From a virus: a stretch of DNA of 25,297 nucleotides. Location: positions 1 to 25,297 of IMG/VR virus record IMGVR_UViG_3300027782_000336; one strand, 5' to 3'. The position numbers and the translations under genes were made by a program. This document shows positions 6,017-22,986 of the stretch, one piece after another (positions within the stretch are counted from its first letter, which is position 1; each line of letters opens with the position of its first letter). The notes beneath the pieces were generated by a model. The model had not been told where the DNA came from and searched no databases. It saw nothing but the letters and a program-made list of their open reading frames with translations.

Positions 6017-6017
6017 G

Positions 6018-6047
6018 GCCCCCGACGGCGTAGAGTCCGTCGGGGGC
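6018..6047 (+). terminator. 11-bp stem hairpin upstream of the polymerase gene
   Basis: GCCCCCGACGG (6018-6028) pairs without mismatch with CCGTCGGGGGC (6037-6047) around an 8-base loop. Only GTT follows, so an intrinsic terminator would lack a proper U-tract. The polymerase start is 19 bases downstream. It may reduce read-through from the early genes, protect the polymerase mRNA 5' end, or act as a replication signal. Confidence 0.5.
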
Positions 6048-6065: not shown

Positions 6066-7850
6066 ATGTCTTTAATTGATGACGTATCGAACCGCATAGA
6101 GTGGGCGAGCGAGATTGTGGTCGACGTCGAGACTACTGGTCTTGACTGGAGAACCAACCAGATCTGCGGCTACGTCTTCTCCTTTGGCCCGCACCAAGAA
6201 GACTCCCTGTACCTACCCGTAAGGCACGAGAGGGGGCCTAATTACGACGCCGCGACGGTCAAGGCTATGATCCTGTCCCACCAGAAGCATCCCCGCCGAT
6301 GGATAGGCCACAACATGGCGTTCGATCTTGGCTTCCTGCACGCCGAGGGCATCAGCCTCAACGGTCCGATCGAAGATACGATGATCAACGCGGCTCTGCT
6401 TAACGAATTTCGCCGGTCCTTCTCGCTGGAGAGCTGCGCGGAGGAGGCCGGGGTCGTGGCAAAGAAGTCAAGCGAGATCAAGGCGCACATCGAGAAGACC
6501 TTTAACAAGGACTTTGGCCGCAACTACATGGGCCAGTATTGGCGCCTGTCGGCAGACGATCCGGTCGCCATCGAATACGCCACCGGCGACGGGGTGACGA
6601 CATGGCAGCTGTGGGAGAACCAGACCCACGACATCGACAAGCAGAGCCTCGATCGGGTGCACAAGGTTGAGTGCGACCTGATCCCCGTGTTAAACCGCAT
6701 GACGATGCGCGGCATCAAGATCAACGTCGATCGTCTGCACCGTCTGCGGGTGGTGATGGCCGAGACGCAGCAACGCGCCAAGGAGTCGCTTGGCGAAGAG
6801 GTCAACGTCAACTCGTCGGCCCAGATCCTGAGGCTTCACCAGAAGCATAATCTGTCGGGGTGGCCTACCACCGAAGCTGGCAACGCGTCATTCCCCGAGG
6901 AGTATCTGCGCACCACCGACATCGGTCGAAAGATCGTCGCCATCCGGAAGTCTACCCGCCTCCTTGAGGCCTTCATCGACCCGATGATTGACCGGCATCT
7001 GCACAATGGGCGGGTGCACGCCACGTTTAACCAGCTGCGGGGCGACACGTATGGGACCGTCACCGGTCGCCTGTCGTCGTCGAACCCCAACTTGCAGGCG
7101 GTTCCCAAGCGCGACGAAGACGCTGGTACTCTGTTCAGGTCCATATTTATCCCCGACGAGGGCATGGTCTGGGGCTCCGCCGACTACAGCCAGTGCGAAC
7201 CCCGGCTCCTCGCCCACTACTCGGGGTGCAAGGTCCTAGTAGACGGGTACAACCAGACCCCGTCGATCGATGCTCATACCGCCGTCGCCAAGGCAGCTAA
7301 TATCGACCGCCAATCCGGCAAGCGCCTTAACCAAGCCCTCCTGACGGGGGCCGGTAACAACAAGGCCGCTTTGATGCTAGAGAAGCCCATGGACGAGGCT
7401 CTAAAGATCGTCGACGCGTACTTCAATTCGATGCCCGAGATCAAGGACCTACAGCGGGACGCCTCGCGCCTCATGAAGAAGCGCGGTTTCGTCTTCTCGA
7501 TCCTTGGCCGCAAGTCTCGCCTCGAAAGGAAGGGCCTGGAGTACAAGGCGGTCAACCGCATTCTCCAGTGCTCGAACGCCGACATGATCAAGATCTCGAT
7601 GGTGAAGATCGACCAGATGTGCACCGAGATGGGCGGCATCGACATGCTTAACAACGTGCACGACTCCATTGACTTCCAATACGTGGAGGGCAACGAGGGT
7701 GCCTACAAGAAGGCGCTGGAGATCATGTGCGATTTCCCCGAGATCCGCGTACCGATCGAAGTAGAAGAGGACTCCGGACCCGATTGGGCATGGGCTTCCT
7801 ACGGCGAGAAGACGTGGCAAAAGATCATGTCCGATAGGGGCATGATATGA
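6066..7850 (+). CDS. dpoZ: family A DNA polymerase with 3'-5' exonuclease, DpoZ candidate
   Basis: The protein has 594 residues, the usual length for phage PolA without the 5'-3' nuclease. The exonuclease domain has all motifs: D20 and E22 (VVDVETTGLD), N83 and D87 (WIGHNMAFDLGF), Y171 and D175 (EYATGDGVT). The polymerase domain has TGRLSSSNPNLQAVPKR, motif A D373 (ADYSQCEPRLLAHY), motif B R415 to G430 and motif C H532-D533 (NVHDSIDF). Motif B reads RQSGKRLNQALLTGAG: R415 and K419 are kept, but the positions of E. coli F762 and Y766 are Q423 and T427. Motif C has HDS where HDE is usual. It copies the phage genome and, given purZ, mazZ and datZ downstream, is likely to favour dZTP over dATP (inference). 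The stop overlaps the next start. Confidence 0.85.
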   Translation: MSLIDDVSNRIEWASEIVVDVETTGLDWRTNQICGYVFSFGPHQEDSLYLPVRHERGPNYDAATVKAMILSHQKHPRRWIGHNMAFDLGFLHAEGISLNGPIEDTMINAALLNEFRRSFSLESCAEEAGVVAKKSSEIKAHIEKTFNKDFGRNYMGQYWRLSADDPVAIEYATGDGVTTWQLWENQTHDIDKQSLDRVHKVECDLIPVLNRMTMRGIKINVDRLHRLRVVMAETQQRAKESLGEEVNVNSSAQILRLHQKHNLSGWPTTEAGNASFPEEYLRTTDIGRKIVAIRKSTRLLEAFIDPMIDRHLHNGRVHATFNQLRGDTYGTVTGRLSSSNPNLQAVPKRDEDAGTLFRSIFIPDEGMVWGSADYSQCEPRLLAHYSGCKVLVDGYNQTPSIDAHTAVAKAANIDRQSGKRLNQALLTGAGNNKAALMLEKPMDEALKIVDAYFNSMPEIKDLQRDASRLMKKRGFVFSILGRKSRLERKGLEYKAVNRILQCSNADMIKISMVKIDQMCTEMGGIDMLNNVHDSIDFQYVEGNEGAYKKALEIMCDFPEIRVPIEVEEDSGPDWAWASYGEKTWQKIMSDRGMI

Positions 7851-8263
7851 ACGAGGTCGAGCACCAGAGAAAGGTAATGCAGGACTTCAAGGCAGCGTTC
7901 CCAAAGGCGTACGCCATCAAGATGTCTAATCGGTTTCTAGCCGGTATACCGGATCTGATGCTCAAGGCCCCCGGCCACGAAATACTGTTCGTGGAGATGA
8001 AGGTTACGGACTACAAGAAGAAAGGGTTCGTAAACGTCGATACCACGAGAATTCAGCAGGAAACCATGGCCAAGATGGGTATGGCTGGCATCCGTTGCGA
8101 GGTCTGGGTGGTAGTCACCAACGACGACGACTTGTACATGTTGCGGGTTCCACCCGAGGCCACTCGTGTGGAGTGCTCGATAGAGTCGCTGGCGAAGAAA
8201 GAGAAGAGGGGTCCTTGGCCCATCGTAGAATTTATCAACAACCCTGTAAGGATATACACATGA
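7847..8263 (+). CDS. VRR-NUC type PD-(D/E)XK nuclease
   Basis: This is a 138-residue protein with an ATGA overlap with the polymerase gene. The nuclease core is visible: helix glutamates E3/E5, a GIPDL motif with D36, then E50-x-K52 in LFVEMKVTD, with the QxxT/M helix (IQQETMAKMG) after it. This is the layout of VRR-NUC and Holliday-junction-resolvase-like phage nucleases, about 100-140 residues long. Likely roles are resolution of branched DNA, end processing or host DNA degradation. It lies between the polymerase and purZ, so it is co-translated with the base-modification genes. Substrate is unknown. Confidence 0.75.
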   Translation: MNEVEHQRKVMQDFKAAFPKAYAIKMSNRFLAGIPDLMLKAPGHEILFVEMKVTDYKKKGFVNVDTTRIQQETMAKMGMAGIRCEVWVVVTNDDDLYMLRVPPEATRVECSIESLAKKEKRGPWPIVEFINNPVRIYT

Positions 8264-9372
8264 GCAGCTTTCTAACGCGTGGCAAGGCTAGCGTAGTGAT
8301 CGACGGACAGTTCGGCAGCACCGGCAAAGGTCTTGCCGCCGCGTACCAAGTAGCCCAGATGGACAAAGACCATCCGGACCACAACTGGTCGTTCACCGTC
8401 TGCACCACGAACGCGGCCCCCAACGCTGGTCACACCACCGTTCTACCAGACGGCACCAAGTTCATTACTTTCCATATGCCGACGATGGGCGTCCTGAAGA
8501 AAGACTCGATGATTTACCTTAATGCCGGGGCCATCATCGATATAGAGATGCTAGAAGAGGAGATAAACACCCTTGACATCGATTTTCGCCGAGTCGTAAT
8601 CCACCCCAACGCGGCTGTCATTACTCAGGAAGACAAAGACTACGAAAAGGACAAGTCGTCTGGGGCCACCCAGATCGCGTCTACCCAGAAGGGTGTTGGT
8701 CGCGCTCTGGCCCGCAAGATCATGCGGGAGGGCGTGACGGCCAAGGACTACACAAAGCACCTGTCCTACCTTGGTATGTCCGTTAGAGCCATAGACCTTA
8801 ACGACGTGATGGAAAAAGGCTACGCCGTTTGCGTCGAGACGCCGCAGGGCATGGGTCTGTCCCTCAATAATGGCTTTCACCCGCACTGCACATCGCGCGA
8901 AGTCTCGGTATCGCAGTCGCTGTCCGATGCGGGAGTCCACCCCTCCTACTTGCATAAGACCCTGATGACCGCAAGAACGTACCCAATTCGCGTTGGCAAC
9001 ATCGTCGACGAGAACGGCGCGACCATTGGGTACTCCGGCGGGGTGTACGACGACCAGCACGAGTTGAACTGGGAGGACTTCCCCAACGTGGAGCCCGAGC
9101 GCACGACCGTTACCAAGCGCGTTCGCCGCATCTTCACGTTCTCGGAGATGCAGTACAGGGAGTCCATCGCGCGACTTCGCCCAGACATCGTCCATTTAGG
9201 GTTCTGCGACTATCTCCTAAATGAGGCGGAGTTGGTCAAGATCCTTAACAAGATGATGGTGGCGCACGCATACTACGGGGTGAAGCCCCAGATAGTCTAC
9301 TCGTTCGGCCCCTGCACGACAGACGTCCTGTCGCTTCACGACGCAGTCGAAAGACTGTCCAATGGCAACTAG
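8260..9372 (+). CDS. purZ: PurZ, 2-amino-2'-deoxyadenylosuccinate synthase
   Basis: The protein has 370 residues. ATG 8260 lies within the end of the nuclease gene (AAGGATATACACATG); an open extension to 8095 lies inside that gene and has no RBS. The adenylosuccinate synthetase fold is clear: VVIDGQFGSTGKGL (residues 12-25) stands for PurA's VVVLGTQWGDEGKGK, NAGHT is at 55-59 with the catalytic His58, then GAIIDIEMLEEEI, STQKGVGRA and ETPQGMGL before HCTSREVSVSQ. PurA's catalytic Asp of GDEGKG is Ser20 here, the change associated with PurZ, which accepts dGMP. It is shorter than PurA (about 430). Reaction: dGMP + Asp + ATP gives N6-succino-2-amino-dAMP, the first committed step to Z. A salvage-type PurA is the less likely alternative, because mazZ and datZ follow. 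Confidence 0.88.
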   Translation: MSSFLTRGKASVVIDGQFGSTGKGLAAAYQVAQMDKDHPDHNWSFTVCTTNAAPNAGHTTVLPDGTKFITFHMPTMGVLKKDSMIYLNAGAIIDIEMLEEEINTLDIDFRRVVIHPNAAVITQEDKDYEKDKSSGATQIASTQKGVGRALARKIMREGVTAKDYTKHLSYLGMSVRAIDLNDVMEKGYAVCVETPQGMGLSLNNGFHPHCTSREVSVSQSLSDAGVHPSYLHKTLMTARTYPIRVGNIVDENGATIGYSGGVYDDQHELNWEDFPNVEPERTTVTKRVRRIFTFSEMQYRESIARLRPDIVHLGFCDYLLNEAELVKILNKMMVAHAYYGVKPQIVYSFGPCTTDVLSLHDAVERLSNGN

Positions 9373-9667
9373 TATCCGCCCAGAGGTGGCGTACTTCGCC
9401 GAGATGATGGAGCTAAAGCTCAAAAAGCGCGACGGATACGGGGGGTGGGACCACCTCCCCCTTGAATACCTAAGGGAGAAGCTTCAAGCAGAGGTCCGAG
9501 AGCTGGAGATTTCCCTCAGGTACGAGCCCACTAACGAAGTAATGAATGAATGCATCGACGTAGCCAATTATTGCATGTTCATATGGGACATTCTAGCCAA
9601 AGGCAAAGATAATCGCGAAAATCTAGTGTCGCGGGGGAGCAAGCAAGATGCGAATGAAGCCGGATAA
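9362..9667 (+). CDS. mazZ: MazZ-like (d)GTP pyrophosphohydrolase
   Basis: The protein has 101 residues and begins at ATG 9362, 11 bases inside the end of purZ. The MazG-type metal-binding pattern is visible: E44-V-R-E47 (LQAEVRELEISL) and E63-C-I-D66 (NECIDVANYCMF), with GGWDHLPLEYLREK before it. MazZ in Z-phages converts dGTP to dGMP and pyrophosphate, providing the PurZ substrate. Plain MazG-like housekeeping activity cannot be excluded from sequence alone, but placement between purZ and datZ is the arrangement expected for the Z pathway. The last 20 residues (RENLVSRGSKQDANEAG) are probably disordered. Confidence 0.75.
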   Translation: MATSIRPEVAYFAEMMELKLKKRDGYGGWDHLPLEYLREKLQAEVRELEISLRYEPTNEVMNECIDVANYCMFIWDILAKGKDNRENLVSRGSKQDANEAG

Positions 9668-10238
9668 GCCATTTACAGCCGACTTTCGGGACGTGGCGTA
9701 CGTACCGAGGTGGGCGATCGCCCGACGCATCCGCCAGCAGTACCTAGCGGAGCACTCGTACTTCACCGCCGTCTACGCGGACCAGATCGCCCGCACGATA
9801 GGCTGGGACGGCAGCTACGAAGAGCTGTTTAGATACGCGCTGTACCACGATCTGGACGAGACGATCACGGGCGACATACCTGGCCCCGCTAAAAGGGCTG
9901 CTTGGTGCAAGGAGAAGGGCGGGGACGCCATTTTGCCGGTCATGACCGCCAAATTTGGCTTGGACGTCATGCATACCCGCCTCGTGGCCACGGACGAGAT
10001 CCGGGCCATACTGTCCGTAGCGGACTCTATCGAGGAAGTCTGCTACCTGACCGAGGAGCTGCTGCTGGGCAACGTCTGGGTATCTCCAGTAGTGAAGGAA
10101 GCTCAGCAAAGGCTAAAGTTGCGGTGGATGAAGCTACCCGCCACGACTGAGGACCTAGAGGCTCTATGGAAGGAGCATGCTAACGAGTTGTGCCTAAGGC
10201 AGCATGCCCCGCCCACCCTTTTAATGGACGAGCTATGA
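9648..10238 (+). CDS. datZ: DatZ-like HD-domain dATP triphosphohydrolase
   Basis: This is a 196-residue HD-domain protein. ATG 9648 follows GGGGGAG at 9633-9639; ATG 9654 is possible. Metal ligands of the YfbR/DatZ group are all present: R21-W22, H36 (YLAEHSYFTA), H67-D68 with E71 (ALYHDLDETITGD) and D126 (SVADSIEEV). DatZ removes dATP from the nucleotide pool so that only dZTP is left for pairing with T. YfbR-type 5'-nucleotidase activity on dNMP is the alternative. It overlaps mazZ by 20 bases and the helicase by 4, so expression with purZ and mazZ is certain to be linked. Confidence 0.78.
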   Translation: MRMKPDKPFTADFRDVAYVPRWAIARRIRQQYLAEHSYFTAVYADQIARTIGWDGSYEELFRYALYHDLDETITGDIPGPAKRAAWCKEKGGDAILPVMTAKFGLDVMHTRLVATDEIRAILSVADSIEEVCYLTEELLLGNVWVSPVVKEAQQRLKLRWMKLPATTEDLEALWKEHANELCLRQHAPPTLLMDEL

Positions 10239-11781: not shown

Positions 11782-12134
11782 ACACCATCAATCACCACAT
11801 CCTGAGCGAAGCCATCCGCGTCACCACCGATCGCCCCAACACCCACGGGGACTCCGAGGCGAACTTCAACCACACCGCTAATTTGTGGTCGGCTTATCTC
11901 GGGTTTAAAATTTCTGCTGCGGACGTCTGCCAAATGCAGGTGCTGGCCAAGATGTCTCGGTCCAAGGTTGGCAACGCTAACCACTCGGACCACTACATTG
12001 ACCAAGCAGGTTATTCCTCGCTTGCTGGTAGAATGGCTATGGTAGCGCCCGTAAATCTGTGCAAGCTGGAAAAGGAGATGAAACAGGCAGTTGTAGAGAC
12101 ATCCCAAAAAGAGGAAATACAGGAGAAATCATGA
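11778..12134 (+). CDS. DUF6378 family phage protein
   Basis: This is a 118-residue protein with an ATGA overlap. HHILSEAIRVTT, then a HGDSEANFNHTANLWSAYLG stretch, ISAADVCQMQVLAKMSR and HSDHYIDQAGYSSLA follow the DUF6378 pattern ('IL.EA..LT.GDR...YG.PE.NF..IA.LW..YLG...T..DVA..M.LLKIAR....D..VDIAGYAA'). The family is widespread in phages and helical; it may relate to MazG-like nucleotide hydrolases, since the GD..E..F and D..DIAGY positions are acidic. Function is not established. The TSQKEEIQEKS end is read through the RBS of the lysin gene. Confidence 0.7.
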   Translation: MNTINHHILSEAIRVTTDRPNTHGDSEANFNHTANLWSAYLGFKISAADVCQMQVLAKMSRSKVGNANHSDHYIDQAGYSSLAGRMAMVAPVNLCKLEKEMKQAVVETSQKEEIQEKS

Positions 12135-12739
12135 AACGCATCATAGCCATAGTAGCTTCCGTTTCCTTGGCGGTTGGCTCAATGCCAACTGTCTGGGCTA
12201 ACGAAAGCGCCGCCGACTTTTTCCGAAAGGACAAAGAGTACTGGTCGAAGGGGATAGCAGTGGGAAGCACTGTTTGGGCCGGAGACTTGTACTATGCCCC
12301 CGGGAAGCAAGCCGACGTGGCAAAGATGGTGATGGACGAGGCCCGCAAGCGCCTTGGACAACAGCATGTCGACGACGCTCTCCGACTAACCAAGTTGGAG
12401 AGTAATTTCCGGTGCCACGTGTTGGGACCCAAAACCCGCCATGGTAGGGCGGTTGGACCCCTGCAGGTGCTACCGAAAAGCGCCGAGTCTCTTGGCATTA
12501 GCCCTTACGACTTGCACCGGGACTGCCGGTCGCAGATCACTGCGGGCATCCTCCACATGGAGAAATGTCTTCATGTGGGGGCCAACACCTACCGCAAAAT
12601 GGCCGCATGCCACGTCGCCGGTTGGGGCGGATGGAACAAGCGCTTAAACCGCAGAGCCGAGGCGTACAGGAGTAAGTACGTGAAGATGGCCGAGGCGTCT
12701 AAAGTGCCACACTGGGCAGGAGTTCTGCAAACATGGTAG
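12131..12739 (+). CDS. exported lytic transglycosylase (endolysin candidate)
   Basis: This is a 202-residue protein with start ATG 12131 behind AGGAGAAATC. It has a classical signal peptide: MKRIIA, a hydrophobic core to about residue 17, then PTVWA with likely cleavage after A23. The SLT fold follows: catalytic E90 in LTKLESNFRC, GPLQVLP at 109-115 for the GxxQ motif, and AACHVAGWGGWNKR where lysozyme-type enzymes have AYNAG. Four or more cysteines suggest disulfides in the periplasm. It would cleave glycan strands at lysis. The small membrane protein gene overlapping its end supports a lysis role. Housekeeping-like SLT morphogen is the alternative. Confidence 0.75.
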   Translation: MKRIIAIVASVSLAVGSMPTVWANESAADFFRKDKEYWSKGIAVGSTVWAGDLYYAPGKQADVAKMVMDEARKRLGQQHVDDALRLTKLESNFRCHVLGPKTRHGRAVGPLQVLPKSAESLGISPYDLHRDCRSQITAGILHMEKCLHVGANTYRKMAACHVAGWGGWNKRLNRRAEAYRSKYVKMAEASKVPHWAGVLQTW

Positions 12740-12870
12740 ATGTCCTAGTATTTATAGGAGTAATCATGGCCACCTGTGTCGCCATAAATCTGGTGATGGT
12801 TACTGTTTTGCTCACGATAATGGGGGCAGACCTCATCAAGGAATCTTGGGGCAGGTTTACGAAAGATTGA
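12733..12870 (+). CDS. 45-residue one-helix membrane protein, holin candidate
   Basis: The frame opens at ATG 12733 (AGGAG at 12719-12723) in the last codons of the lysin gene and ends at TGA 12868-12870. A hydrophobic stretch from about residue 4 to 31 (VLVFIGVIMATCVAINLVMV and on through LLTIM) is long enough to cross the membrane, followed by the basic end KESWGRFTKD. A second in-frame start, ATG 12766, has its own AGGAG five bases upstream, giving a 34-residue form. Two starts and the position behind a lysin recall holins and pinholins. No family match is claimed. Confidence 0.5.
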   Translation: MVDVLVFIGVIMATCVAINLVMVTVLLTIMGADLIKESWGRFTKD

Positions 12871-12876
12871 GTAAGA

Positions 12877-12902
12877 GGGGCGCTGGCATCAATCAGCGCC
12901 CC
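12877..12902 (+). terminator. hairpin behind the lysis genes
   Basis: GGGGCGCTG (12877-12885) pairs perfectly with CAGCGCCCC (12894-12902) around an 8-base loop. The following bases are CAATTTAT, a weak U-tract. It starts six bases after the small membrane protein's stop and would end or attenuate the replication-lysis transcript before the GcrA-like gene. Confidence 0.55.
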
Positions 12903-12919: not shown

Positions 12920-13432
12920 ATGAAAAGCGAAATTATTGAAATGTGGAATAACGGCGCTACGTCTGGAGACATAGCCAATCATCTCGAAGTTACACGGAAC
13001 ATAGTCATGGGGACTGTGTATAGGGCGCAACAAGAAGGTCTTGCCGTGAAAAAAGGACCACAAACGCCGAAGCAAAAAGAACTGCCGTCTTACCCACCAA
13101 AGCCTCGAAAGAAAACCCTCTTCCCGATTGAGGACAAAAAGGACCAGTTGGCGGATAAACACGTCACCACTAACAAGAGAATCGGACCAGCCACGACGAC
13201 CTTGCCAGTCACCAAGCCGCCCGCAAAGATGAAGACGATGATGGAGTTAACGCCGCACGACTGTAGGTGGATGTTCGGTAACGGTATGTACTGTAGCCAA
13301 GCCGTGGACTCAATATTGAGGCCGTGGTGCAAAGAACACTATAGGCTAGTCTACGTCCCAAGGAAACCGCGAAGCGTTAACAGCAGCCGGACGATAGCAA
13401 TGGCGAATTTTAACTTCTTGTGGGTGCGCTAG
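12920..13432 (+). CDS. GcrA-like transcription regulator
   Basis: This is a 170-residue protein starting at ATG 12920 after GAGGGA. The N-terminal HTH (IIEMWNNGATSGDIANHLE, then VTRNIVMGTVYRAQQEGL) and the C-terminal module (LTPHDCRWMFGNGMYCSQ with C115 and C125, then RPWCKEH with C137 and H140, and LVYVP) have the same order as the cell-cycle regulator GcrA, whose C-terminus reads 'L..TCRWPIG......FC......YC..H..LAYQP'. The linker (residues about 45-105) is basic and proline-rich, as in GcrA. GcrA stimulates sigma70 promoters carrying methylated GANTC. A phage copy could redirect host RNA polymerase or rewire host cell-cycle genes. The stop lies within the following hairpin. Confidence 0.75.
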   Translation: MKSEIIEMWNNGATSGDIANHLEVTRNIVMGTVYRAQQEGLAVKKGPQTPKQKELPSYPPKPRKKTLFPIEDKKDQLADKHVTTNKRIGPATTTLPVTKPPAKMKTMMELTPHDCRWMFGNGMYCSQAVDSILRPWCKEHYRLVYVPRKPRSVNSSRTIAMANFNFLWVR

Positions 13433-13451
13433 GGGGGTTCGCCCCCCTAGC
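13428..13451. terminator. bidirectional terminator hairpin between convergent arms
   Basis: GCTAGGGGGG (13428-13437) pairs with CCCCCCTAGC (13442-13451) around a TTCG loop: 10 perfect base pairs, very stable. The TAG of the GcrA-like gene is part of the left arm, and the tail-fibre gene on the other strand ends 10 bases beyond. No T-run is present on either side, so it may work with Rho or simply block converging polymerases. Confidence 0.6.
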
Positions 13452-13460
13452 TGTTCGACG

Positions 13461-15053
13461 CTACGCCAATCTTGCTTCTAGCGCCTCGACGCGCGCGACC
13501 AGCTCTTTGATCGCTGCCGTCAGGATGGGGACCAGCTTGCTGTGATCTATGCCCTGCGCTCTAATTGATCCATCAGGTGCGACCGCATCTTTTTTCCCGG
13601 TCACAGCTTGGGGGACGATTGCCTGCACTTCATGGGCTATGAAGCCCGTCACGGCCATACCTGATGGGTCGTTTTTCCATGTAAAACTTGCCGGGCGAAG
13701 GGCTTTTACAACATCTATACCATTCGAAAGATCGAAGACATTTTCTTTCAAACGGTAGTCGGAAGCAGTATTGTATGACACCGCTGAAATAGTGGTGCTA
13801 ATGTCGCCAGTTGCGACATATGACGCCGGAGTTGTGCTTGACCCATAAAAGAACTGAGCAAGAGGGTTGTTGACATTGTTCACGCGGACAGCCAACGCGC
13901 CAAAAGAATTGTCAGCCGTGTCGCTTTGGTACGCCTCAAGCCCCCATTCGGCGCTGTTGTTAAATCGGCCTTTCGCTCCCGTGAATGACCCTCCAGCACC
14001 TGTTGTCGTATTTCCGGCCACCAAGTTGCCAGTGCCGTCTACGAAGAAAGTTTCCGTGCCTGAAGAGTTTTGACCCACATAATTGTATTGGGTGTTCGTT
14101 GTCACCTTAGACACGACGCCGTCTGTGCTGGCCGGGGCAAGAACCGTCAGGGTTTCCGCCGTGGAGAGGGCGCTAGACGTGCCTATGCGAGCCGTAGTCA
14201 TGCCCGCCAGCGTCCCACCCGTGATGGCTACAGAGCTTGCAGCTTGCGTGGCTATAGTACCAAGGCCGAGGCTTGTACGTGCGTTCGATGCGCTCGAAAT
14301 GCTGTAGGTAAGGGTGACAGCGCCAGTCGAGACGTTTGCGGCCAGACCAAAGCCGCTTGCCGAGCTTGTCGCTGCAATCGAAGTAACGCCCGACGGCGAG
14401 GCCGAACCCGTAGCCGAAATCGTTATGGTGCCGTTGCCGTTGACGATGGTTACGTTCGAGCCCTGAGTGAGTGTTGCGGGAGTAAGACCACCCGCAGAGT
14501 TGCCAATGAGAAGCTGCCCAGCTGTATACGTCGTCGCTCCAGTACCGCCGTTGGCCACCGTTACGGGCACGGTTAGGTTTATCGTGTCCCCGTTTGTTAT
14601 GTTAATTCCAGTACCCGCATTAATAGGCGTACTATCGGCCAAGTATGTGCTAGCAGTGGCTTGGTCCACCCACACTTGGGTATTGGCTTCCTGAACGGCT
14701 TCTACAAACTCTACGCCAGCACCAGCGTTTTTAACGTATATGGTGAAGGGTCCGGTGGTCGAGTTGTCTATAATGAAAGCGCCGGATAGCGTGGAGGGAA
14801 AGAACAAGTTAATGGTCTTCGCCGTGGTGGCCGTGCCGGTGAGCTTGATGCGAGCGTTTTGGCACTGCGTCGCAGTAAGCGTTATATCGGTGCTGGCAGA
14901 TGTAAGGCTTGGCGGAGAATACGTTCCGCCAAACGAGGTATCTATGACTTCCCAGTTGGTGTTAATTGGTTCAGTCCAGCCGGTCGCGTCTGCGGCGAAT
15001 TCTTGGTAGGTGGGAGTGAAAAGACCTTTGTTAGTCGTGGTGGCGGTGGGCAT
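13461..15053 (-). CDS. tail fibre with C-terminal S74 self-cleaving chaperone domain
   Basis: The protein has 530 residues. The start at 15053 has GAGG nearby upstream. The N-terminus (TTNKGLFTPTYQEFAADATG, then WTEPINTNWEVID) looks like a virion-attachment region. A long Thr/Ser/Gly/Ala-rich beta-repeat shaft follows (NGGTGATTYTAGQLLIGNSA is the typical fibre text). The last 100 residues form an intramolecular chaperone (Peptidase_S74): S431-D-Y-R-L-K436 with the Ser and Lys at the catalytic spacing, VTGFIAHEVQAIVP, and a C-terminal coiled coil (LVARVEALEARLA). Cleavage would occur just before S431 after trimer folding. It is the host-receptor-binding fibre candidate and the last gene of the virion operon. 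Confidence 0.8.
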   Translation of the reverse strand: MPTATTTNKGLFTPTYQEFAADATGWTEPINTNWEVIDTSFGGTYSPPSLTSASTDITLTATQCQNARIKLTGTATTAKTINLFFPSTLSGAFIIDNSTTGPFTIYVKNAGAGVEFVEAVQEANTQVWVDQATASTYLADSTPINAGTGINITNGDTINLTVPVTVANGGTGATTYTAGQLLIGNSAGGLTPATLTQGSNVTIVNGNGTITISATGSASPSGVTSIAATSSASGFGLAANVSTGAVTLTYSISSASNARTSLGLGTIATQAASSVAITGGTLAGMTTARIGTSSALSTAETLTVLAPASTDGVVSKVTTNTQYNYVGQNSSGTETFFVDGTGNLVAGNTTTGAGGSFTGAKGRFNNSAEWGLEAYQSDTADNSFGALAVRVNNVNNPLAQFFYGSSTTPASYVATGDISTTISAVSYNTASDYRLKENVFDLSNGIDVVKALRPASFTWKNDPSGMAVTGFIAHEVQAIVPQAVTGKKDAVAPDGSIRAQGIDHSKLVPILTAAIKELVARVEALEARLA

Positions 15054-17544: not shown

Positions 17545-20500
17545 TTATAATGGGATGCCGAAGTAGCGAAGGACGTTAGGTCCGTACTTCTCTTTGACTA
17601 CCTTCTTTTCCTCGTCGCCAAGGTCGTTCCCGTACTTAGCCATATACTCCATGATCTTGATGGGCTTGCCAGTTTTAGGATCGGGGGCCGTGTCCTTGAA
17701 CATCTTCTCTAGAGTCTGGCGTTCCGCCGCGTAGAAAGCGTCGGTGTAGGTTTGGTCGAACGCTCTATTAGCCTCTCGGCTCGTCAGGCGCACGTAGTCG
17801 CGGTATTGACCCCGATCGCCCCTGCCCGCTGCTTGCCAATCGGTAAAGAACTTGTCTTTGTCGATTTCGCGCATGTTAGTAGAGAGTAGCTTGGCCATCA
17901 ACGCGTACTGCCCGCCCGGAGACGTGCTGAGGCTGGGTATACCCTCCGCCAGCTCCTTAAAGGCCGAAACCGCACGAAGCTGGCTGTCGCTCAGACGGCC
18001 CTGCTGGAGTTGGTTAACCAGCTTGTTAACTTCTTCTTGGTTCATCAGGATCGAGGGGTCCTGAATTAGGTTCGACTTGCCTGTAATGGCGGCAAGATTG
18101 TTAAGCGTGGCCATCACCGGCTGCAAAAGCTCTTGAGCCTTACCACTGGTAGAAATGCTGCCAGCAGCGGGAAGAGACGCGAACGACGCGGACAGAGGCA
18201 CTAGGATCTGCTGCTGGGCGCGGGCATTAGTCGCCATCTTGAGCTGGGGATCAAAGAAGTCCACAGCCTCCGCCTTGGCCTTAGTGGCGGCATCGGAACC
18301 GGCCATTTCGAACGCTGCGCGAGCTGCCGTGTTGGCTTGGTCTTTGGACAACGCAATAGCCGTGGGCATGCCCGAAGGGGTGCGAGTAATATCGACTCCT
18401 TCAACCCCCGGTCTTACGGTTACTCTACCGGGTACTTCGGGCGTAGTCGTTCCCGCAGGCGTGTTAGTTCCCGCAGGAGCGGGTGCAGCCGTGCCATCAG
18501 GCTTAGTCGCCCCGGAACCCGTGGTGGACTTCCTCATCTGGCTAACGATTGACTCCACGCGGGGGTCAACCTTGGGGCGAGAGCCGGGATCTGCCGCCAA
18601 CCACTCGTTATAGGGGAACCAGTCATAGCTACCGTCGGACTTGATGATTTTAATGAACGTTACCCCGTTCTCGGTCTTAAAGGAGCTACCGACAATGTCG
18701 GACATCACCTTCTCAACGTTAGCGCGGGATGCCCCAAGCGCCTGCTCTTGGGTTTCCTCGCCAGCGGAGGCGGAGATCGCACCGACAAGGCCTTCGCCGA
18801 GAGCTTGGCTAAATCGCGGCTTATTAGACGCGAGCATCGAGCCAACACCCGCCAGCAGAGGCCTCCAGAATGCGGAAGATTTCATTTCGTCGGGCAAGGA
18901 GTCCCCGCCAATCCTGTCTAGGATGTTCAGGTACGGGGCGGACTTCTTGTCCATCGGACCTTGGCCCGGACCACCGATGCCGGGGCTACGGATCTGGCTA
19001 ACCTTCCCGTCAACGAGATCGCTGCGCTGTTCGGTGCCAGACCTTCCTTCAGAATCAGAAGAGCCGCTGGCTATGTCGGAGCGCAGGTTGTTAATGCGGG
19101 TTCCCCAAGCTTTAACGTATGCCCCATACTTGCCGGGGTTTTTCTCGATGAGAGAATCCTGAAATTCCTTGCGGAGATCCAGGAATTTCTGGGGGTCACC
19201 ACCCGACAACCGGATGAGTTCCTTAGCCTTCTCAACACCCGCTATTACCGCCGTATCGAATGCCACGTGGGCGAGATCCGGGGAAAGCTTGTCAGCACCG
19301 ATCGCGTCCCAATACTGCGACTTGTATATCTCTGCGGCCTTTTCCTTCGACGGATTTTCGAAGAAACCGGGGTGGTACTTGCGGTTGATGCCGTAAAGAG
19401 AGGGTTCGCCGTTGGTGTCCCTCTTGTTAAGACCGCCTTCTTCTTTAAAGGTACGGGACAGAGCACGGTCAAAGTTCGGGCTTCTACCCTCAAGACCCGC
19501 GACTTCCACCTCAGCGCCCTGAGGGGCGTCGGAAGGTATGTTCAGATTAACGTCTGGACGAGAAGGCACCAGACCAGTGGTGGGCATCGGTGTCTGTCTA
19601 ACCGCGCCCAACCCCGGCAAGGGGGCGTCGGACGTTATGTCGCCACGAGAAGCTAACTGGACCGGGGGAGCCGCGCTCTCGATTGGGAGAGCCGCGCTCT
19701 CGATCGGGGGTGGCGGGATCTGGTCTTCCTCAAGCGAATTTTCAAGGCCAAGGGGTCCACCGCCGTACTTGCGCGGGCGAGCCTTCGACGTCGCCTTGCG
19801 GTAGTTGACCATCTTAATGCCGTCAATTTCGTGAACAGCACTAGGGTGGCGCTTCTCGACCTCTTGGGCCATCAGCCCGAGCTGGGTCTTGCCATCGCCG
19901 AAGTCGTAGCTGTACACTTTCTGGCCGTCAAACAACTCGCCAACGACCTTCTTGTTCTCCTTGATGCGCTCGTCCGAGAACATCGTAAGGAGCATCGGCA
20001 GGAATTTGGCCGCAGCAGTGCCTATGGATGCAACGGAAGCCGCCGTGCCAAGGGCCTCGCCTATTCCGCCACCACTAGACCCACCACCGCCACCACTGGG
20101 CTTAAGAAGGCCTTCACCAAGCTTGCGGTCGGATCTCTCGTCGGGGATGTCGATCCCCTCTTCGGGGGCTAGACCGGCAGGAAGGCCACCGCCCGCAAAG
20201 TGAGCGCGACCGCCACCTGCAAAGTGGGCGCGGCCACCACGAGCCAAGTCTATAGAATCAAAAGAGGACGACCCCTTACCACTAGCTACCGGAAGAGAGT
20301 CGTTCATGGTGTTCTTCGACAACCAATCATCCGGGTCGATTTTGCCGCCAGCCAATTGGACGTTGCTCGCATCATCTAGCGACGCGCCGGGGCTAGTAGT
20401 CGTGGTCGTGGTCCCACCGGGCATGGGTGGACCCTGTTCTGGCTTACCAATGGCCCCGAGGCGCTCCCCAATGCTGGGGATGCGCGTGCCTTCAGAGTCT

Positions 20501-22986
20501 CTTCCGCCAGTAACGTACGGGGCGGCTTTCTTGCCCATGTCGAACAGTTTGCCAATATTTTCCCCGGTCTTGGCGGCTTCGCCTATAGACGACCCGAGGG
20601 TTTGAGGCCTCTGGAGACTGCTGCCAGAACTACGAAGCGCTGCCATCGCTTCTTTGGATGGTTGCTGAACCGTATGCTTAATGCGCTCAAAGCCGGGACC
20701 ACCCGGCATCTGCCCGTATTGCGCGGCGTGTTGTGCGGCGAGCTGCTGGAGCATCGCCAAACTGCCACCGCCCTGCTTTTCAATGCGACCGCCAGACGCC
20801 ATGCTGGCGACCGGGCCTTTTCCGGACGCCGTCGGGGCGCCAGACGATGTGGGGACCGGAGTTGCCCTACTGGCAACGGAGCCGTACCGGGTCGACAAGG
20901 CAGGAGGCGGCGGTGAACCCGGGTAACCGGAAGTAGCTGGTCCCTTGCCTTGCCCAACCATCGACGATCCACCAGTGGTCGGGGGTGTGGTAGCGCCTGC
21001 GGTGGGTGCCGGTCCTTTGCCCGTAGCAGCGGGCGCGCCGGGAGTGGTAGCGGGAGCCACGGGTGCGGGTGCGGGCGGCGTCGACGGCCCTTTGCCGGAC
21101 GCTGTCCCCGCTCCCATTGGCGACGGCCCCTTGCCCGCAACAGCAGGTGCGCCGGGAGTAGCCGCTTGTGGAGAGAAGGACGACGCGCTGGCTGTGCTTG
21201 GTGCGGCGTAGAACCCGCTCCTGTTCTTCGTCATCTGGTCGTAAGGCTTAAATGCGTTCGGGTCATACTTAAGAGAATCTTGGTAAGGGGCGGTAGGGAT
21301 GCCGGTGAACACCGCCTGGTTCTGCGTAGCAGTGTACTTCTGGGCCTCCGGGCTCTTCGCGATCGACGAAGCTATCTGGTCAGGGGTCTGACCCGTAGAC
21401 AGCATCTTTTCCCAATAGTCGGTTTCCGCCTCGCTAGCGGGTGCGCGACCAAGGTACTTCTGGTACATCTGCGACACTTGGTCTTCGTAGCCAGAATTTG
21501 TAAACCCGGGAAACTGGGGGGCTTTTTTCTGCTCTACGGGTGGGGCGAAACCCGCACTTTCCATATCGTCGGACCAAACGTACCTTGGCTGGCCGTTTTC
21601 GTCGGGGCTAGACGGAATCATGCCACCGGTAGCATAGTCACCGGGGTTAAGCACAGCACCGCCCATTCGCGACGCGACGAGGCCACCTGACGCGAAGTGA
21701 CCTCTCTTGGCAGCGTCCTCCGTTGCATCGCGGTAATCAACAGTCAGATACCCACCACGCTCGCCAACCGCCTCTGGGTGCTCTTTCTTCACTTCCTGAG
21801 CTATAAGGCCGAGCTGCGTAAGCTTTTCGCCCTTGAAGTTGTAGCTATAGATGTTCTGGCCATCGTAAGTCTCGCCGACTTTCTTAACGTTCTCCTTAAG
21901 GCGGCGATCGGACCACCCGCCCGGAGCGTTCGTCGTCGTGGTGCTTCCCGACAGCGCACCTGTACCCATGGCGATGTTTGCAAGGAACTGCGCCTGCTGG
22001 TACGGGTACCCCTGCTGCTGCAGGAATTGGTTGTACATAGCCGTTCTACCGGCTTGGTCGGTTTGCTGCTGGATCTGGCCCGCACCCATCTGCGCTTGGC
22101 CCGCATTAAGCGCTGCCTGCTCCGCCGCCCCGCCAAGAGTGGCGTATGCCTGCCCAGCACCGGTACCCATTCCATACAAAGCTTGGCCTGCGCCAAGACC
22201 CATGTTGTACAGGTTCTGCCCCGCGCCAGTCTGCTGAGCGTACTGTTGTTGTCCGAGTGCGGCCAACTGCTGGCCCGCCCCCTGAACAGCCGCCCTGTTC
22301 GCCTGCCCTGCAGCAAGGTTCACGCCCTGCTGTTGCTGGAATGTGTTAAGAGCCTGTCCGTAGCCCTGCGACAGTAGACCCGAGAGGGTGGCCTGATTAG
22401 CCATAGACTGTTGGCGGGCAAGATTCGCTTGGGCAATGCCGCCCCTGTCCCCGCCAAAGGCCCCCGACATAATGGCCTGGCCCGACAACGCTGAACGTTG
22501 TTGTTCAGCCTCCTGCTTTTGCAGAGCCTGCTGGGCTTCGATAACGTTCTTCATATACGGGTTCATGTACTGCTGAAGAGCAGCTTCGCTGAACTTGTCT
22601 GCGTTTACTTCCCCCATGCCTCTATTTATAGCGCTTTCGGCTTGGCCCGCGTATCTGCTGCCAGTTCCTAAAGCTTCATTAGTGAGGCTCTGACCCTGAC
22701 CAAGACCAGACTGAACCAGAGGAGCCCCTTGGTTAAGGCCCCCCATTATCATCTCTTGTCCGGCTGCGTAGGAGGGCTGCGACATTCCCGCTGCGGCGTT
22801 AATGTTCGCAATACCCGCCTGTTGCGACGGCGTCAGACCCGCCACAAAAGCGTTGGGGTCATTAGAGTAAGGGACAAATGGGCGAGCAGCTACATCTTCA
22901 GCGCGCGTGTTAACAGCGTTGTAGCGAGCGAGAACCTCAGGCGGGATGGAAACCGACTGTGTTGAAGAAGTAGTTTTACCGCCCAT
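17545..22986 (-). CDS. 1813-residue virion protein with two S74 domains, DUF4214 and GH108 muramidase
   Basis: The start at 22986 follows GGAGTAGAAGAC. Order of parts: a Gln/Ala/Gly-rich helical region (about 90-345, with MNPYMKNVIEAQQ and GAFGGDRGG); first S74 domain from S359 (SDRRLKEN, Lys364); FASGGLVASRMGG; a DUF4214 module at about 499-550 (QMYQKYLGRAPASEAETDYW); a Pro/Ala linker with five GKGP boxes at about 600-730; tandem RAHFAGGG at about 917-932; second S74 domain from S1004 (SDERIKEN, Lys1009); a GH108/PG_binding_3 muramidase at about 1173-1310 with catalytic-type E1183 (EEGGLNKRD, AFDTAVIAGVEKA); and a helical C-terminus. It probably forms part of the ejected core and opens the cell wall during infection. 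Autocleavage at both serines would give three proteins (inference). Confidence 0.75.
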   Translation of the reverse strand: MGGKTTSSTQSVSIPPEVLARYNAVNTRAEDVAARPFVPYSNDPNAFVAGLTPSQQAGIANINAAAGMSQPSYAAGQEMIMGGLNQGAPLVQSGLGQGQSLTNEALGTGSRYAGQAESAINRGMGEVNADKFSEAALQQYMNPYMKNVIEAQQALQKQEAEQQRSALSGQAIMSGAFGGDRGGIAQANLARQQSMANQATLSGLLSQGYGQALNTFQQQQGVNLAAGQANRAAVQGAGQQLAALGQQQYAQQTGAGQNLYNMGLGAGQALYGMGTGAGQAYATLGGAAEQAALNAGQAQMGAGQIQQQTDQAGRTAMYNQFLQQQGYPYQQAQFLANIAMGTGALSGSTTTTNAPGGWSDRRLKENVKKVGETYDGQNIYSYNFKGEKLTQLGLIAQEVKKEHPEAVGERGGYLTVDYRDATEDAAKRGHFASGGLVASRMGGAVLNPGDYATGGMIPSSPDENGQPRYVWSDDMESAGFAPPVEQKKAPQFPGFTNSGYEDQVSQMYQKYLGRAPASEAETDYWEKMLSTGQTPDQIASSIAKSPEAQKYTATQNQAVFTGIPTAPYQDSLKYDPNAFKPYDQMTKNRSGFYAAPSTASASSFSPQAATPGAPAVAGKGPSPMGAGTASGKGPSTPPAPAPVAPATTPGAPAATGKGPAPTAGATTPPTTGGSSMVGQGKGPATSGYPGSPPPPALSTRYGSVASRATPVPTSSGAPTASGKGPVASMASGGRIEKQGGGSLAMLQQLAAQHAAQYGQMPGGPGFERIKHTVQQPSKEAMAALRSSGSSLQRPQTLGSSIGEAAKTGENIGKLFDMGKKAAPYVTGGRDSEGTRIPSIGERLGAIGKPEQGPPMPGGTTTTTTSPGASLDDASNVQLAGGKIDPDDWLSKNTMNDSLPVASGKGSSSFDSIDLARGGRAHFAGGGRAHFAGGGLPAGLAPEEGIDIPDERSDRKLGEGLLKPSGGGGGSSGGGIGEALGTAASVASIGTAAAKFLPMLLTMFSDERIKENKKVVGELFDGQKVYSYDFGDGKTQLGLMAQEVEKRHPSAVHEIDGIKMVNYRKATSKARPRKYGGGPLGLENSLEEDQIPPPPIESAALPIESAAPPVQLASRGDITSDAPLPGLGAVRQTPMPTTGLVPSRPDVNLNIPSDAPQGAEVEVAGLEGRSPNFDRALSRTFKEEGGLNKRDTNGEPSLYGINRKYHPGFFENPSKEKAAEIYKSQYWDAIGADKLSPDLAHVAFDTAVIAGVEKAKELIRLSGGDPQKFLDLRKEFQDSLIEKNPGKYGAYVKAWGTRINNLRSDIASGSSDSEGRSGTEQRSDLVDGKVSQIRSPGIGGPGQGPMDKKSAPYLNILDRIGGDSLPDEMKSSAFWRPLLAGVGSMLASNKPRFSQALGEGLVGAISASAGEETQEQALGASRANVEKVMSDIVGSSFKTENGVTFIKIIKSDGSYDWFPYNEWLAADPGSRPKVDPRVESIVSQMRKSTTGSGATKPDGTAAPAPAGTNTPAGTTTPEVPGRVTVRPGVEGVDITRTPSGMPTAIALSKDQANTAARAAFEMAGSDAATKAKAEAVDFFDPQLKMATNARAQQQILVPLSASFASLPAAGSISTSGKAQELLQPVMATLNNLAAITGKSNLIQDPSILMNQEEVNKLVNQLQQGRLSDSQLRAVSAFKELAEGIPSLSTSPGGQYALMAKLLSTNMREIDKDKFFTDWQAAGRGDRGQYRDYVRLTSREANRAFDQTYTDAFYAAERQTLEKMFKDTAPDPKTGKPIKIMEYMAKYGNDLGDEEKKVVKEKYGPNVLRYFGIPL
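19668..19706 (-). repeat. 21-base tandem repeat within the giant virion gene
   Basis: The 18-base element GAGCCGCGCTCTCGATTG recurs with one change (C for T) 21 bases later, encoding two copies of PIESAA. It falls in the proline-rich linker ahead of the muramidase domain, where length change would be tolerated. Confidence 0.65.
20191..20238 (-). repeat. 24-base tandem repeat encoding RAHFAGGG twice
   Basis: Two adjacent 24-base units share the core GCAAAGTGNGCGCG and encode successive RAHFAGGG at residues about 917-932. The DNA has drifted (several silent changes) while the peptide is identical, which argues for selection on the protein and not a fresh duplication. Confidence 0.65.

Follow-up and report, generated by a model that had tools for sequence, protein, structure and literature searches.

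The window analyzed here, that is, the whole stretch of 25,297 bases of a virus record, comes from a freshwater phage and is probably incomplete; no terminase, portal, or capsid genes were seen in it, and the start of the structural operon falls outside the contig. Its replication block contains nuclease and helicase genes in addition to the dpoZ-, purZ-, mazZ-, and datZ-like genes listed in Table 1. The last gene of the rightward operon is a gcrA-like gene, which lies 3' of a lysis cassette (12131-12870; lytic transglycosylase-like and holin-like genes, assigned by eye) and directly before the convergent structural/tail genes. Its ATG is immediately preceded by GAGGGA, a ribosome-binding-like sequence. 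The hairpin that follows the holin-like gene lies too close to the gcrA start codon for a promoter to fit in between, and a consensus promoter scan around gcrA gave nothing useful. In the related contig L004, no lysis cassette is present at this place. By eye, we also observed three RLKENV/RIKENK-type stretches resembling intramolecular chaperone tails in 13461-15053 and 17545-22986, as well as a GH108-like lysozyme stretch inside a 1,813-aa ORF.

Table 1. Features of the window that bear on the gcrA-like gene (positions are those of the window)
Feature	Positions	Strand	Evidence
Second small GcrA-like gene, HTH only, 70 aa	2358..2570	+	Pfam GcrA 31.5 bits (cut-off 26.9), positions 5-49
dpoZ-like family A DNA polymerase	6066..7850	+	phrog_17, 2.2e-103; nearest named phage vB_OspP_OH (a purZ phage)
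purZ (2-amino-adenylosuccinate synthetase)	8260..9372	+	phrog_1211, 7.2e-60; GQFGSTGKG, Ser at catalytic position
mazZ-like gene	9362..9667	+	homologous to pyrophosphohydrolase adjoining purZ in Ochrobactrum phage vB_OspP_OH
datZ-like dATP triphosphohydrolase	9648..10238	+	phrog_7076, 1.3e-13
10-bp GC-rich hairpin, gap between holin-like gene and gcrA	12877..12902	+	RNA fold about -20.5 kcal/mol, z -3.06; no T run behind
gcrA-like gene, 170 aa	12920..13432	+	ATG at 12920, stop ending at 13432; Pfam GcrA, 7ye1_G, AlphaFold2
DNA-binding HTH	12920..13039	+	core T25-R26-N27-x-V29-x-G31-x-x-x-R35; 5yiv_A superposition; W9, G12, G31, R35 invariant
Sigma-70-interacting-type domain	13229..13369	+	C115, W117, C125, C137, H140, Y145; 7ye1_G and 5yix_B model matches
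10-bp hairpin, gap between gcrA and convergent tail-fibre gene	13428..13451		RNA fold -22.3 kcal/mol, z -3.23; no clear T run

The original prediction, made from the letters alone, had named this ORF a GcrA homologue, and the searches bore this out. Pfam GcrA (PF07750) aligned over profile positions 13-149 of 155 with 37.5 bits (4e-09), above the curated cut-off of 26.9 bits; the best PDB sequence match was Caulobacter GcrA 7ye1_G (phmmer, E = 3.7e-09), and the relatives in bacterial genomes were GcrA proteins of alphaproteobacterial or unplaced proteobacterial origin. The product comprises the HTH (residues 1 to 40), a Lys/Pro-rich linker (about 43 to 103), the sigma-interacting-type domain (SID; about 104 to 150), and a C-terminal helix and tail (151 to 170). 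Pfam and AlphaFold2 agree with the proposed HTH, and the linker is indeed basic and proline rich, with 13 K, 2 R, and 11 P counted from the sequence. The three cysteines and the histidine of the predicted C115/C125/C137/H140 block are all in place, joined by W117 and Y145. Nine columns are invariant across 55 GcrA proteins (W9, G12, G31, R35, C115, C125, C137, H140, and Y145), and the window protein keeps all of them; the C, C, C, H, and Y of its C-terminal domain, likewise invariant in 42 such domains, are among these.

The description of the cysteine-rich C terminus as complete stood only in part. By sequence, none of the four presumed ligand positions is missing, yet the near-invariant cellular stretch WPIGDPxxxxF between the first two cysteines is replaced by RWMFGNGMY, which is five residues shorter. 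The N-terminal WTxE is also gone, and HTH position 32 has changed from K to T. Since both WPIGDP...F and K32 are missing, the protein may have changed or lost its sigma docking or its DNA binding. It scores 43.5 bits where the NCBIfam NF050816 equivalog requires 280. On its sequence, we assign the ORF to the GcrA family without calling it an orthologue of cellular cell-cycle GcrA. The 70-aa protein encoded at 2358-2570 is without the SID, and no counterpart of its gene was found within the available stretch of L004.

AlphaFold2 models gave pLDDT values of 93 to 97 for the HTH and 89 to 94 for the C-terminal domain, with about 54 to 68 in the linker, which is modelled as unstructured and would be flexible. 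The HTH model superposed on 5yiv_A, the GcrA DNA-binding domain with methylated DNA, with an rmsd of 0.8 Å over 38 residues (37% identity; Z 5.4). Because many other HTHs, several of them unrelated, score equally well, the assignment to the GcrA type rests on sequence identity, with which the fold agrees without proving it; Foldseek with the full-length model returned only general HTHs among its top matches. When residues 100 to 170 were modelled alone, three PDB matches were obtained at E ≤ 10, namely, 7ye1_G and 5yix_B (both GcrA) and a negligible third, and the domain aligned with 5yix_B with Z 5.1 and an rmsd of 1.6 Å over 43 residues (VIA-align). In these models, the C-terminal domain has the GcrA sigma-interacting fold, in line with the structural match that had been anticipated; the alignment behind the models contains GcrA relatives, so that this fold match is not fully independent of homology.

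The gene content of the window also supports well the premise, made at the outset, of a Z genome. PurZ carries the GQFGSTGKG motif, and the serine at its catalytic position replaces the Asp of PurA in 100% of phage PurZ proteins (PMC12884076); with mazZ-, datZ-, and dpoZ-like neighbours, homology indicates that the DNA of this phage probably contains Z. The order of DNA polymerase, purZ, mazZ-like, datZ-like, helicase, and convergent genes resembles that of Ochrobactrum phage vB_OspP_OH. Unlike the window, that phage has no GcrA-type SID and has different tail genes.

The original prediction had proposed counting and locating GANTC sites, which GcrA reads, in phage promoters. Relative to synonymous-codon shuffles, the observed/expected ratio of GANTC was 0.72 to 0.76 in the window, 0.47 to 0.48 in L004, and 0.2 to 0.6 in most relatives, with a range of 0.00 to 0.80 over the window, L004, and the aquatic relatives. 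Sites were not enriched outside genes either in the window, where 1 of 51 is intergenic, or in 14 relatives (13 of 299, versus 12.6 expected), and the three window sites of the extended motif YGAKTCG are all intragenic. On these counts, we rejected GANTC-marked phage promoters, which are unlikely targets of the protein. Depletion of GANTC was present also in contigs without a detected gcrA and thus tracks the host rather than the gene; we infer that it fits hosts with CcrM. The ratios gave no consistent sign that Z relaxes GANTC avoidance: beside the values for the window and L004, the purZ phage vB_OspP_OH had 0.25, and the purZ contigs L005 and L006 had 1.15 to 1.19. The sole intergenic GANTC of the window lies in the loop of a strong hairpin (6017-6047), 33 bases 5' of dpoZ. 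In the window, CCNGG (0.56) and CTNAG (0.58) are more strongly depleted than GANTC (0.72) against codon shuffles. Contig L109 (20,147 bases) has one GANTC in total, and its coding set has 0, versus about 31 expected.

L004 carries an orthologue at the corresponding place, with both domains present. This gene, which overlaps the 3' end of the preceding one, was missed by the Pfam search and found by phmmer and alignment searches, and absence was consequently judged with a SID profile. The two GcrA proteins are only about 32% identical, having 49 of 154 aligned residues in common, whereas neighbouring genes reach 54 to 74% and PurZ 71% (260 of 365). Such fast evolution, together with the position of gcrA at the close of the rightward operon and next to the convergent structural genes, would suit an activator of the phage's own middle or late promoters that combines sigma-70 docking with a changed, methylation-independent DNA specificity. 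A precedent may be the GcrA of B. subvibrioides, which apparently controls a small number of genes that have no methylation site (PMC7987155). We nevertheless consider this activator role rather unlikely, as neither a repeated site nor a promoter turned up in the window, which does not reach the beginning of the structural operon, and as the HTH still has the core TRNxVxG...R, which argues against a wholly new specificity.

By its structural genes, the window falls in a very large aquatic family, relatives of which infect Pelagibacter, Roseobacter, and Caulobacter. A SID was found in 12 of the 42 contigs searched of this structural lineage, and in 8 of the 11 contigs of at least 30 kb; 10 of the 12 SID-bearing contigs encode HTH, linker, and SID, and two SID-only-like proteins (L209 and L210) also occur within the lineage. 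A search with the C-terminal domain added 15 contigs, which encode either a SID alone, in a sister lineage with a related polymerase, or an HTH and SID with little linker, located before convergent tail genes. No clear match to a named phage other than MW202485 was obtained for the SID-only and short-linker proteins, and a close-relative scan of viral contigs gave nothing useful. The SID-only proteins, of about 75 to 80 aa and without an HTH, are encoded near the dpoZ-related polymerase (L103, L105-L108, L110-L114, and L116); one example reads MSHLERREESP...CRWVTDYVTLAGLHIFCG...RPYCKDHYGLVYVK. They are possibly stand-alone binders of sigma-70 domain 2. Together with L209 and L210, these proteins lend some weight to a competitor function of the window protein, whereby the SID would occupy sigma domain 2, displace host GcrA, and shut off the GcrA regulon, the HTH being secondary. 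This function appears unlikely, and more so than activation of phage promoters, since the window protein, its L004 orthologue, and the proteins of ten relatives all retain the HTH, which is also the better conserved half between the window and L004 (19 of 40 residues identical, versus 13 of 47 for the SID).

In the tree, the window protein paired with L004 (UFBoot 98), and both grouped with MW202485 and aquatic phage proteins in one clade of 15 proteins (UFBoot 96), outside of which the cellular and phiCbK-type GcrA proteins fall. In HMM comparisons, the phage model scored above the cellular one for L004 (72.6 versus 48.6 bits), with only a slight difference for the window (75.8 versus 72.2 bits). 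The low identity to cellular GcrA and the equivalog score far below cut-off might suggest a functionless remnant acquired from a host. That idea is hardly credible, however, given an open frame that keeps every invariant residue, a syntenic orthologue conserved at 32% identity, and the supported phage clade. In MW202485 (L007:1368-1928), the GcrA-like gene encodes two tandem HTHs 5' of the SID. Synechococcus phage Ssp-JY42 (L095) encodes a GcrA near cellular alphaproteobacterial GcrA although its listed host is cyanobacterial, from which we infer that the true host of such phages may be an alphaproteobacterium.

We further rejected a tie between gcrA and Z chemistry. No purZ was found in the 42 contigs of the structural lineage, many of which are fragments, or in the 15 contigs with related SIDs, and no GcrA-type SID was found in vB_OspP_OH or in the purZ contigs L005 and L006, both partial. 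From these distributions, the A-to-Z substitution looks incidental to gcrA, a trait of a large aquatic podophage lineage. Because related phages with ordinary adenine carry gcrA too, the gene would be a common takeover tool and no adaptation to the odd base.

Z retains the N6 amino group, and the Z:T pair has three hydrogen bonds. It had been argued that, with Z in place of the adenine of GANTC, the protein must either act on host DNA or read phage promoters without adenine methylation. This dichotomy is not forced. It is weakened by the finding that E. coli methyltransferases still modify Z-DNA in vitro, albeit with an efficiency reduced at least tenfold (PMC8342488), by the methylation-free regulation noted above for B. 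subvibrioides GcrA, and by the presence of gcrA in non-Z relatives; moreover, a sigma-docking domain can act without reading GANTC. Sigma factors are themselves reported to be sensitive to the A-to-Z change (PMC8342488). Since GcrA docks on sigma domain 2 and stimulates open complexes (PMC7403470), a phage-encoded version could make up for the base change by helping host sigma-70 to open promoters with Z in the -10 element, and non-Z relatives would then employ GcrA for another purpose. We regard such help as a long shot. Among the papers searched, none names PurZ and GcrA together.

The reading that we prefer, with a probability of about one half, is that the phage version of GcrA docks on host sigma-70 and redirects host transcription, with host promoters as the likelier targets. 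In the cellular system, GcrA combines a DNA-binding domain with a SID that docks on sigma domain 2, and open complexes are promoted at methylated promoters (PMC7403470); an action on the host has likewise been proposed for phage GcrA (PMC3556154). Family, domains, lineage, and, by model, the folds are the established steps. Beyond these, the C-terminal SID would bind host sigma-70 at its domain 2, and the HTH would tether the sigma-70 polymerase to host promoters; in infected cells, the phage would in this way imitate or displace host GcrA and redirect host transcription. Given that these phages have few GANTC sites and no intergenic excess of them, the protein would more probably target host promoters, or phage promoters of another sequence, than phage GANTC promoters; the search for targets in the window covered 25.3 kb of an incomplete genome, with the start of the structural operon beyond the contig. 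In sequence, the retained HTH core suggests a related DNA target. The existence of the SID-only sister proteins suggests that sigma docking is useful by itself and that it is the activity that has been kept.

What is known of phage GcrA proteins comes mainly from phiCbK-type jumbo phages and from single annotations. Earlier homologues include those of phiCbK-like phages (PMC3556154), Agrobacterium phage Atu_ph08, Brucella phage Y17, and a coral-associated virus. Like Caulobacter crescentus GcrA (5yiv, 5yix, 7ye1; PF07750; NF050816), the window protein has the order HTH, linker, and SID, the invariant C, C, C, H, and Y, and the modelled folds; it differs in its identity of about 33%, in the missing WTxE and WPIGDP...F, in K32T, and in its score below the equivalog cut-off. 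With the phiCbK type (phiCbK gp222, CcrBL10, and BL57), for which a role in shifting the host towards DNA replication has been suggested (PMC3556154), it has in common a phage-borne HTH and SID, whereas those proteins possess a WPYGDP stretch and group with cellular GcrA, apart from the clade of the window protein. Also related are the GcrA-like proteins of aquatic podophages (L199-L208, L109, L115, and MW202485), which fall in the same clade and belong mostly to the same structural-gene lineage. Unlike the window, their contigs are without purZ as searched (MW202485 in part only), MW202485 has two tandem HTHs, and L109 and L115 have almost no linker.

The analysis removes the apparent paradox of a GANTC reader in Z-DNA. 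It indicates that abundant aquatic podophages harbour a widespread GcrA clade of their own, accompanied by SID-only relatives, and it offers a natural test of which half of GcrA matters. The clade and its SID-only relatives would represent a common route by which phages take hold of alphaproteobacterial sigma-70.
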